A stretch of DNA of 64,000 bases from Bacteriovorax sp. BAL6_X (GTDB lineage: Bacteria; Bdellovibrionota; Bacteriovoracia; Bacteriovoracales; Bacteriovoracaceae). Position 1 is the stretch's first letter, and the number at the start of each line of letters is the position of its first letter. The translations under genes were made by a program, and so were the position numbers. Under the pieces are notes generated by a model. It did not search any database. It was not told where the DNA came from and was given only the letters and a program-made list of their open reading frames with translations. Positions 22,440 through 25,453 of the stretch are shown in pieces. The stretch covers positions 186,001 to 250,000 of the forward strand of contig NZ_AUMC01000006.1 of assembly GCF_000443995.1 (NCBI RefSeq), read 5' to 3'.

Positions 22440-23012
22440 ATGAAAAAAACTATACTAGCACTACTACTTGCTCTGCCAGTGTTTGCGAATACTGGAGATC
22501 AGGGACAAGAGCCTACACCAAAGCCTTGTCTTGAGTTAACTCAGGAAAAGTTAATTGGCCTAGAAAGTAAGCCGACAAATGAGCTAGTATTTATCTCTAA
22601 TAAATGTTCATACGCTGACTTTTCTAAAGAACTTAAAGAAGAGCTACAAAAAGCGATTCTTAATGCAGATGACAGCAGACTACAACTACTTCTAAAAGAC
22701 GAAAAGATCAATGTTATCATGGATACACTGGCCACAGATCATGTTGGTTCTACTCGCTTCTCATATGAAGATACAAAGAAGATTGAAGACTTCTACTCTT
22801 CAACTAAGGCCGACTCTCTAAAACAATCAGGAAACCTAGAATCTTTTAGAGAAGAACAATCAGATGATTTCTACTTAGTATTATTTTTTAATGCTGAAAA
22901 AGATCGTCTTATTGTTATCTACAAGAGACTTACAGAAGCTCCAGTTAAACAAGAGCCGACAGAGCCAAATGATGGTTCATCAGACGACCTTCCTTCTGAA
23001 GAAGTTCAATAA
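22440..23012 (+). CDS. Small exported acidic protein, unknown
   Basis: This 190-residue protein has a standard signal peptide (MKKTILALLLALPVFA) and an acidic mature part. Two cysteines (KPCLEL, NKCSYAD) could form one disulfide. The C-terminus is a Pro/Glu/Asp-rich tail (EPTEPNDGSSDDLPSEE) likely to be disordered. No family is recognised. It is separated by 103 bases from the preceding gene and probably has its own promoter. Downstream transcription may end at the hairpin with T-run at 23118-23147. Confidence 0.7.
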   Translation: MKKTILALLLALPVFANTGDQGQEPTPKPCLELTQEKLIGLESKPTNELVFISNKCSYADFSKELKEELQKAILNADDSRLQLLLKDEKINVIMDTLATDHVGSTRFSYEDTKKIEDFYSSTKADSLKQSGNLESFREEQSDDFYLVLFFNAEKDRLIVIYKRLTEAPVKQEPTEPNDGSSDDLPSEEVQ

Positions 23013-23020
23013 ATCAAAAG

Positions 23021-23044
23021 GCCCTTGAAGTCATTTTCAAGGGC
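23021..23044 (-). terminator. Terminator on the minus strand after the 32-codon micro-gene
   Basis: GCCCTTGAA and TTCAAGGGC pair perfectly (9 bp, 6-base loop). Read on the minus strand the stem is followed by CTTTTGATTT. It begins 10 bases past the stop of the small ORF at 23055. On the plus strand no T-run follows, so it mainly serves leftward transcription. Confidence 0.65.
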
Positions 23045-23054
23045 GCAAAATCAC

Positions 23055-23153
23055 TTAATATACATTGAATGCAATAAAGATCGATGCTAAAATTACAAGC
23101 AGGTGGGCGCCCTGCTTGCAAAATCCAGCGATTTTGCTTTCTTTTTTACTCAT
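23055..23153 (-). CDS. Probable 32-residue membrane micro-protein
   Basis: An ORF too short for standard calling: MSKKESKIAGFCKQGAHLLV then a hydrophobic run ILASIFIAF and NVY. That is a basic N-terminus plus one transmembrane helix, typical of bacterial small membrane proteins. AAGGGA lies 7 bases before the ATG at 23153 (an in-frame ATG also occurs at 23159). A terminator follows directly (23021-23044). The SD and start codon lie in a predicted RNA stem with the leader (23149-23211). The 716-residue protein gene ends 150 bases upstream on the same strand. No homologue is known to me. Confidence 0.5.
   Translation of the reverse strand: MSKKESKIAGFCKQGAHLLVILASIFIAFNVY
23118..23147 (+). terminator. 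Possible plus-strand terminator inside the micro-gene
   Basis: GCAAAATC-CAGC-GATTTTGC is a perfect 8-bp hairpin followed by TTTCTTTTTT. A second perfect hairpin, CAAGCAGG...CCTGCTTG (23096-23118), sits just before it. It could end rightward transcription from the 22440 gene, about 105 bases after its stop. Confidence 0.5.
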
Positions 23154-23211
23154 ACGCATTCCCTTGCCTAAGAGGTTAGCTCGGGACAAGATTGTCCTGA
23201 GCAAGTATGAG
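23149..23211 (-). promoter_or_regulatory. Structured leader that hides SD and start codon of the micro-gene
   Basis: Read on the minus strand, CUCAUAC (23211-23205) pairs with GUAUGAG (23155-23149), which contains the start codon. UUGC/CUUGC pairs with GCAA(G) at the edge of the SD. Inside is a hairpin, GCUCAGGACAA...UUGUCCCGAGC (23202-23179). The form suggests translational control (riboswitch, protein-binding leader or thermometer). I do not recognise a known class. Confidence 0.45.
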
Positions 23212-23302
23212 CTCAAAAGTTTTTGAATCCTAAATTTCTATCATTTAAATGAAAAGCGAATTGCTTCTCTTCTTGCATCTATTTCTAAAATAGAAAACCA
23301 AT

Positions 23303-25453
23303 TTATAGAATTAAAAATTTCTTGGCATAAAGACTCGCGGCCAAGTCCGCATTTTTTCGATTGCGATTTTCGACACGATAGCCGATGAAAACTCGCTTTC
23401 CAGCTTGAAAGCGATAAGCAGGAGTAAGCCTTACAAACTTATCCATATCACCTTTGTAGACAATAAATTCTTCACCAGGCTTTAAGTCTTTGGCGTTAAT
23501 AAGAAGTGAGCCTAGGTCGATACTCTCAGCACCCCAAGAAACCTTGATCTTTTTAACCTCACCTTTTTCACTTGCAATACCTCTACCCTTTTCATCTTTC
23601 TCATAAGCAAGGCCATTGAACATCTTTGAAATCTCAGATGCATCTGGGTGATTTGTAATCGAAGCCGGTAGCGTTGCTCCAGAACTTTGAAGATTATTTA
23701 AATCAATATTTGGTGCTGAACGCCCAGTGATATCAACTACTGTTGCCTTCTTCTCAGGTTGCGTAAATGTTGAACTTCCAGTTGAAGAAGACCCACCGCC
23801 ACCTGTAGCAAAGTTTGATCCACCACCTGACCCGGCACTTGCAACATTTGCGATCGGATAATTACCTGATCCGTTTGAACCTCTTCCTCTTCTACCTCTT
23901 TGGATTGGCTCAAGAGTTTCAGCATCATAACGTTGGTACTTATCCTGATTTTCACGTGCTAATTTTTCTCTTTCTCTTTTTAGTCTTTTTTGCTGTTGAT
24001 TTAGGGCATCGGCAAGACTACTTCCAGCTTGTCTTAATGTTTTAATAGTCTCTACAATCTGCTTCGTATTTTTTGAAATATTTCGATTATTTCTTGTTCG
24101 TGCTCCCATTCTAAGACCGCTTCTACCTGATGCCATTTGTACAGAAGCAGAACTAACACCATCACTTACACTTACAGACTCCACTGCTTGTTTTGTCGGT
24201 GGCTGCTGAGAAGGTCCAGTCATTTTGGCTGCGATTGGAGATCCAGCAGAGGAATCATTTTGAGATGGAGTTTGTGCCACTTTTTCATTCTTTTCTGGGC
24301 CACCAATGTCAAGGGCCTCACCATCTTTGCTGGCAAAGAATTGTGAAACAAGTGAGCCCTTCTTCATTGAGTTAGACTCGATCTTTGCAAGCTCAATTCT
24401 TTCTTCTAATTCATTAGAATCATCTTCATGCAGATGACTCCTAAAGAAGGCAATATCATCTTCATTTAACTCACCTGATTTGAAATCTTTTAATAATTGG
24501 TTTCCTATTGCTTCTTTCAAAAATTTACAATCCGGAGTTTCCGTATTTTCAATACAATTTGCTTTTTTAAATTCAGCTAGGGCCTTATTTTTATCTACAT
24601 GACATCCATGTATTGAATAAGGTGCTTCATCCATACAAATTTTAGTACAAGTTGGATTTACCGGTGCTTCAAGTGATTGATGGGCATTCTTTAAAGTCGA
24701 AAGAATATTGTTAGACATATCTTCTCGATATGGACGATCTTTTATTTTACAAAAGTAATTAAAGTTATCAATATCTGGTGTCGTTGCAAGGTCAAAGTCA
24801 AATTTATCAAACTCAGGTCCTGAAAGAGACTCTCCTTTACAAAAACCAATCACTTCGTTTTCAAACTTTCGACAAGAGTCATCAAGCTCTTCTTGTGAAG
24901 GTACACCAACCCCTGCAATATTACCTAAAGAAGATTGACAGATATTTGATCTAAATTGATTAATTGTATTATTATCTGAATTAGAAGATTGAAAGATTTC
25001 TAAGTAATCATTACCTATTTCACTACCTAGATCAAGACCCTTATATTCTGGAAATAATTCATCAATCATTTGTTGATCGCAATTCTTAGAAAGCGTATCA
25101 TTTAAACTACAATTAAGACTTAAATTTGAATTATCATTTTTGATACTTTCTGCTAACTCGAAAATTTTAGCTTTAAGCTGTTTTCCACTTTTTTGTCGAA
25201 ATGCCTTTCGACTTTGCTCAAAATCTGTTTTCTCATCATTAGAAACGCATTCACAATATGTATCAGAATTAGCATCGAAGCCAAGCTTTTCAACACATTT
25301 TTTTCCTACATTAACTCTTGTTCCACGATTAATTTTTGAAGCAATTTCTTCAATTGTATCACCACCATTAAAGATTGTAGCTATCCCCATACGACATTGT
25401 GCATTCGCAGAAAAAGATATTTGAATAAGTAGAAAATAAAATAAAGCTCTCAA
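23303..25453 (-). CDS. Large exported protein with five-cysteine module and Ser/Gly linker
   Basis: The family is not recognised. The 716-residue protein has a signal peptide (cleavage after ANA, residue 18), then cysteines at C53, C67-x-C69 (YCECV), C115 and C125, the same order as in the 880- and 980-residue paralogues at 44.6-50.6 kb. A basic coiled-coil stretch (about 480-510, QQQKRLKREREKLAREN) and a Gly/Ser linker (about 525-570) follow. The C-terminal folded region (about 600-716) contains KVSWGAESIDLGSLLINAKD and RFQAGKRVFIGYRVENR. It lies 8 bases after the 226-residue exported protein gene and is transcribed with it from the sigma-28-like promoter at 26162. Confidence 0.75.
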   Translation of the reverse strand: MRALFYFLLIQISFSANAQCRMGIATIFNGGDTIEEIASKINRGTRVNVGKKCVEKLGFDANSDTYCECVSNDEKTDFEQSRKAFRQKSGKQLKAKIFELAESIKNDNSNLSLNCSLNDTLSKNCDQQMIDELFPEYKGLDLGSEIGNDYLEIFQSSNSDNNTINQFRSNICQSSLGNIAGVGVPSQEELDDSCRKFENEVIGFCKGESLSGPEFDKFDFDLATTPDIDNFNYFCKIKDRPYREDMSNNILSTLKNAHQSLEAPVNPTCTKICMDEAPYSIHGCHVDKNKALAEFKKANCIENTETPDCKFLKEAIGNQLLKDFKSGELNEDDIAFFRSHLHEDDSNELEERIELAKIESNSMKKGSLVSQFFASKDGEALDIGGPEKNEKVAQTPSQNDSSAGSPIAAKMTGPSQQPPTKQAVESVSVSDGVSSASVQMASGRSGLRMGARTRNNRNISKNTKQIVETIKTLRQAGSSLADALNQQQKRLKREREKLARENQDKYQRYDAETLEPIQRGRRGRGSNGSGNYPIANVASAGSGGGSNFATGGGGSSSTGSSTFTQPEKKATVVDITGRSAPNIDLNNLQSSGATLPASITNHPDASEISKMFNGLAYEKDEKGRGIASEKGEVKKIKVSWGAESIDLGSLLINAKDLKPGEEFIVYKGDMDKFVRLTPAYRFQAGKRVFIGYRVENRNRKNADLAASLYAKKFLIL

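Follow-up and report, generated by a model that had tools for sequence, protein, structure and literature searches.

The locus at positions 23021–23220 of the window, the whole 64,000-nucleotide stretch of Bacteriovorax sp. BAL6_X DNA that was analysed, is by its layout a candidate type I toxin-antitoxin-like unit, a reading that we hold with a probability of roughly 0.6 from the sequence. All parts of such a unit are found within 200 bp, in positions that fit together. They comprise, on the minus strand, a small peptide gene that has a terminator of its own and a start predicted to be masked, and, on the plus strand, a predicted antisense RNA gene.

The peptide gene and the opposite strand

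The features of the locus are as follows.

23227–23255, minus strand: possible, weak promoter of the peptide mRNA, TTTTCA-17-TAGGAT (8 of 12 positions), by match to the consensus
23205–23212, minus strand: GCUCAUAC, 5′ arm of the stem that masks the start (fold prediction)
23179–23202, minus strand: inner leader hairpin, GCUC-A-GGACA/UGUCC-C-GAGC (fold prediction)
23162–23165, minus strand: Shine-Dalgarno sequence AAGG, 8 nt 5′ of the AUG
23148–23155, minus strand: GUAUGAGU, 3′ arm of the stem that masks the start, with the start codon inside it (fold prediction)
23055–23153, minus strand: open reading frame (ORF) of a Lys-rich, single-helix membrane peptide of 32 aa (ORF list and hydropathy)
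23021–23044, minus strand: intrinsic terminator at which the peptide mRNA would end, with the stem GCCCTTGAAAATGACTTCAAGGGC followed directly by the tail CTTTTG
23065–23093, plus strand: predicted promoter of the antisense RNA, TTGAAT-17-TAAAAT with a TG extended -10, within the ORF, by match to the consensus
23097–23148, plus strand: antisense RNA, predicted at about 50 nt from deduced ends, comprising the hairpin AAGCAGG/CCUGCUU and a terminator hairpin
23118–23147, plus strand: predicted terminator of the antisense RNA, GCAAAATC-CAGC-GATTTTGC followed by the T-run TTTCTTTTTT

The ORF encodes the peptide MSKKESKIAGFCKQGAHLLVILASIFIAFNVY, whose best 15 residues reach a hydropathy of 2.46, which indicates one membrane helix and agrees with the short hydrophobic peptides of type I toxins. 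A second in-frame ATG is found at 23159, two codons 5′ of the main ATG. A TTG at 23216, which would open a 53-aa frame, is a possible start in a region more open than that of the ATG; it was set aside, as nothing supports it over the ATG. The terminator of the peptide mRNA has a 9-bp stem and is located 10 nt after the stop codon. According to the preliminary description of this DNA, the ORF has a Shine-Dalgarno sequence, a Lys-rich start, a hydrophobic helix and an immediate terminator, and the plus strand carries a hairpin with a T-run at 23118–23147; both observations hold in the sequence. That description overlooked the in-frame ATG at 23159 and, on the plus strand, the extended -10 promoter TTGAAT-17-TGCTAAAAT; this promoter is located in the 3′ half of the ORF and the terminator in the 5′ half. 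Type I toxin-antitoxin systems include an antisense RNA gene, and here a predicted promoter and a predicted terminator are present on the opposite strand inside the ORF. The predicted RNA forms two stable hairpins, is wholly antisense to the ORF over codons ~3–18, and ends about 4 nt before the AUG.

The leader of the peptide mRNA is predicted to fold into a three-way junction that consists of the start stem, the strong inner hairpin and a small hairpin in which the Shine-Dalgarno sequence pairs with CUCUU (23174–23170). The start stem GUAUGAGU/GCUCAUAC is present in both the MFE and the centroid structures, as had been proposed for the pairing of the start codon with an upstream CUCAUAC around a strong hairpin; the edge of the Shine-Dalgarno sequence had been thought to pair with UUGC, and the MFE structure pairs it with CUCUU instead. 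Thus, the AUG and the Shine-Dalgarno sequence are both paired in the MFE structure, and the masked start region that is common but not universal in type I systems is predicted here. For the minus strand of the locus (211 nt) the folding energy is -77.2 kcal/mol (z -7.4; 0 of 200 shuffles were equally stable), the leader alone gives a z of -3.7, and the plus strand of the locus folds at -71.1 kcal/mol. Of 1792 intergenic 211-nt windows taken from 1.25 Mb of this genome, only 6 equal or surpass this fold after GC correction, and the top of this ranking includes long palindromes and transfer-RNA-like regions. The cost of opening the start site, 12.1 kcal/mol, is equalled or exceeded in 7% of 871 genes and is only moderately unusual.

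Within the ORF, GCAAAAUC is predicted to be able to pair with GAUUUUGC ahead of the terminator. Moreover, the GCAAAATC of the antisense RNA hairpin occurs a second time on the plus strand at 23046, before the minus-strand terminator (window 23046–23137). Because this sequence is present twice, the ORF segment has two potential partners, one nearby and one at the 3′ end of the mRNA, and it is possible that the two alternative pairings constitute a long-distance switch.

If the locus is a type I unit, it may work as follows. A minus-strand mRNA of about 205 nt would encode the 32-aa peptide, with a leader that pairs the Shine-Dalgarno sequence and the AUG and with a terminator directly after the frame, and this full-length mRNA would be translated poorly unless it is unfolded or processed. 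A two-hairpin antisense RNA of about 50 nt would start from the extended -10 promoter, which is located in the 3′ half of the ORF, and stop at the terminator in the 5′ half. Transcribed from its own promoter, this RNA would pair with the complementary hairpins of the mRNA from about 4 nt after the AUG; the pairing would block the ribosome, and the duplex would be marked for decay by RNase III. When the antisense RNA is scarce, the peptide would be made, would insert into the inner membrane, and would slow growth.

Rarity of the combination and a second locus

A survey was made of 2.45 of the 3.23 Mb of the genome, in stretches that included the window, for intergenic ORFs of 18–60 codons that have a Shine-Dalgarno sequence and a hydrophobic segment, with a terminator no more than 70 nt away and a promoter/terminator unit on the opposite strand no more than 60 nt away. 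The first four conditions were satisfied by five loci in the 2.45 Mb, compared with a mean of 1.2 in 23 first-order Markov controls. All five conditions were satisfied by two loci, compared with a control mean of 0.09, a figure that is optimistic for the window locus because the filter was designed with this locus in view. The second of the two, at C3:130265, had been flagged by its fold alone before the filter existed. Elsewhere in this genome (G000), L133:2266–2436 on the plus strand (C10:742266–742436) holds a 56-aa ORF with a single helix, a hydrophilic N-terminal half, a GGAGG motif and its own terminator, and lacks an antisense unit.

The second locus belongs to a family with these members.

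G000, C3:130265–130477 (L075:10265–10477, L089): ORF at 130265–130339 for the 24-aa hydrophobic peptide MEDFLLLVELVICLLNLLIILSKF, with a masked start, its own terminator, and a divergent sRNA that also has a terminator
G020, C83:57813 and 58070 (L090, L094): two tandem copies, 75 and 79% identical
G020, C53:39548 (L176): a third copy

G020 represents another genus of the same family. At all four loci, part of the sRNA is antisense to the early codons of the toxin mRNA from that locus, and every sRNA matches its own mRNA best (scores of 13, 17, 15 and 14, compared with 4–10 for the others). This matching, kept despite sequence change, is comparative evidence for pairing from loci that are not fully independent, since two of the four are in tandem. 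The peptide has no match in Pfam, PADLOC or PHROGs. The locus has the same layout as zorO/orzO (PMC3919570), and judged from its sequence it is a conserved type I toxin-antitoxin-like family and is better supported than the window locus. Its homologues, with antisense stretches that fit their own mRNAs best, indicate that the filter probably selects genuine type I units from this genome. The presence of type I systems in the lineage is thus very probable; this makes such a unit more likely beforehand at the window locus as well and stops short of proof.

Comparison with known systems

In layout, the closest known counterpart of the window locus is aapA/IsoA of Helicobacter. In aapA3/IsoA3, the antisense RNA lies opposite a 30-codon ORF, its -10 box is inside the ORF, and hairpins sequester the Shine-Dalgarno sequence (PMC6733600). 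Like this system (PMC6733600), the window locus has a peptide ORF of about 30 aa, a predicted antisense RNA that would be transcribed from the other strand by a promoter within the frame, and a start region concealed by predicted RNA structures. However, IsoA3 is 80 nt, whereas the RNA predicted here is about 50 nt and ends just before the AUG, and the 5′–3′ long-distance interaction is only suggested here, by GCAAAAUC with GAUUUUGC. No similarity to AapA peptides or IsoA RNA was found with Pfam, NCBIfam and Rfam, libraries that may hold no AapA model.

The antitoxin RNAs of zorO/orzO and tisB/istR are divergently encoded upstream, whereas the antisense RNA predicted here overlaps the toxin frame. 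Both of these E. coli systems have in common with the window locus a hydrophobic peptide of about 30 residues (PMC3919570, PMC7708055), and tisB also has a start region that is masked by mRNA structure. RNA thermosensors and riboswitch-type leaders likewise pair the Shine-Dalgarno sequence and the AUG, and the window locus differs from them by its predicted RNA unit on the opposite strand. Over the whole window, no Rfam riboswitch or thermosensor family reached its gathering threshold; at the locus, the best Rfam match was at chance level, with an E of 0.7 and 18.6 bits where the gathering score is 77. The 32-aa peptide matched no Pfam family at E values up to 10, no NCBIfam family, and no entry of PADLOC or PHROGs.

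The preliminary description had read the locus as a regulated leader or an antisense/toxin-like peptide that corresponds to no known riboswitch. The Rfam results, the plus-strand unit inside the ORF, and the rarity of the combination in the genome fit this reading, and the failure to find a homologue counts against it. Of its two alternatives, the antisense/toxin one is strengthened, because a predicted promoter-terminator unit lies on the plus strand inside the ORF and the combination is rare genome-wide. We regard as evenly balanced the fuller proposal that the locus represents an undescribed type I family, restricted to its species, whose antisense RNA of about 50 nt overlaps in cis, and that the same genome holds a second undescribed family of zorO/orzO layout.

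According to a cyanobacterial report of 2025, the only groups previously found to have type I systems were Proteobacteria, Firmicutes and Tenericutes (PMC12390103). Among the papers searched on type I systems in Bdellovibrio and on toxin-antitoxin in Halobacteriovorax, no title or abstract described a type I system in these bacteria. If the present reading is true, type I systems would extend to another phylum, since the host, which by its gene content is Bacteriovorax-like and probably predatory, belongs to Bdellovibrionota. Such units would furthermore be recognisable in raw sequence by their architecture although the peptide has no homologue; the same filter recovered the second, comparatively supported locus.

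Conservation and rival explanations

No homologue of the 32-aa peptide was found in 129 genomes of the family or in 369 genomes of the phylum (one genome per species). A single-sequence covariance model (R1) matched only the window locus itself in 125 family genomes, and the GTDB, viral, phage and plasmid collections contained no relatives of the peptide or the RNA. Of the weak tblastn matches to the peptide, several were judged to be chance matches because, on the plus strand of their loci, which was the strand read, they fall within long ORFs: a ligase-like ORF (L002), a uracil-DNA-glycosylase-like ORF (L004) and a response-regulator-like ORF (L007). The preliminary description had named two findings that would speak against it, namely that close relatives conserve neither the peptide nor the pairing and that this strand gives no transcript, and the first of these is what the homologue searches returned. 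In two congeners (G001 and G003), putA and a 375-aa gene are conserved together and the next genes are different. In a third (G004), the convergent homologues of the flanking 716-aa and 190-aa genes are about 16 bp apart with nothing between them. These differences in the flanks place the unit in a variable block. Type I systems are usually narrowly distributed; for the window locus, such narrowness also gives no sign of selection on the predicted peptide.

The strongest rival explanation, which we consider unlikely, is that the ORF arose by chance where two convergent genes overlap at their 3′ ends and that the peptide is not made. The plus-strand terminator at 23118–23147 would then end the 190-aa gene (stop at 23012), and the minus-strand terminator at 23044–23021 would end the 716-aa gene (stop at 23303). 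The hairpin that adjoins the 190-aa gene has no plus-strand T-run, so this gene may need the more distal terminator; in addition, no convincing minus-strand T-run terminator is present between 23303 and 23044, and the peptide is not conserved. However, a chance ORF leaves as coincidences both the start-masking leader junction and the extended -10 promoter just before the plus-strand terminator. The combination of Shine-Dalgarno sequence, helix and terminator is also unexplained, given the control means of 1.2 ORF loci and of 0.09 with the antisense unit, and in the third congener the homologous convergent pair has a gap of only ~16 bp.

It is improbable, in our view, that the locus encodes a translated, non-toxic small membrane protein under the control of a leader that folds on itself, for example one that senses temperature or is activated by processing, and has no functional antisense RNA. 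The leader-only z of -3.7 and the pairing of both the Shine-Dalgarno sequence and the AUG would suit such a leader, but this reading leaves the promoter and terminator of the plus strand to coincidence; two small-ORF loci with such a unit were found where 0.09 were expected, and Rfam recognises no known thermosensor or riboswitch. Still less probable is that the frame is incidental to a structured non-coding RNA or to a small element rich in palindromes. The strong folds on both strands and the absence of the gene block around the locus at the equivalent place in congeners are consistent with such an element; the locus is nevertheless single copy in its own genome, and its frame has a Shine-Dalgarno sequence, a Lys-rich start and a clean membrane helix.

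A search of the genome for paralogous DNA copies of the locus gave no other significant match, and a mobile element reading was rejected as there are no repeat copies. Two other convergent intergenic regions of this genome, C6:253148–253255 (L039) and C6:91577–91795 (L033), share a long palindrome, GTGCCATGCACCTTTGGTTTCGCA...TGCGAAACCAAAGGTGCATGGCAC, with about 30 bp between the arms in one case, which is possibly a small mobile or REP-like element. At L055:8317–9014, a direct repeat of about 170 bp is located beside a transfer-RNA-like sequence, and both copies begin with GTGGTGGCCCGGGC, a tRNA-like end.
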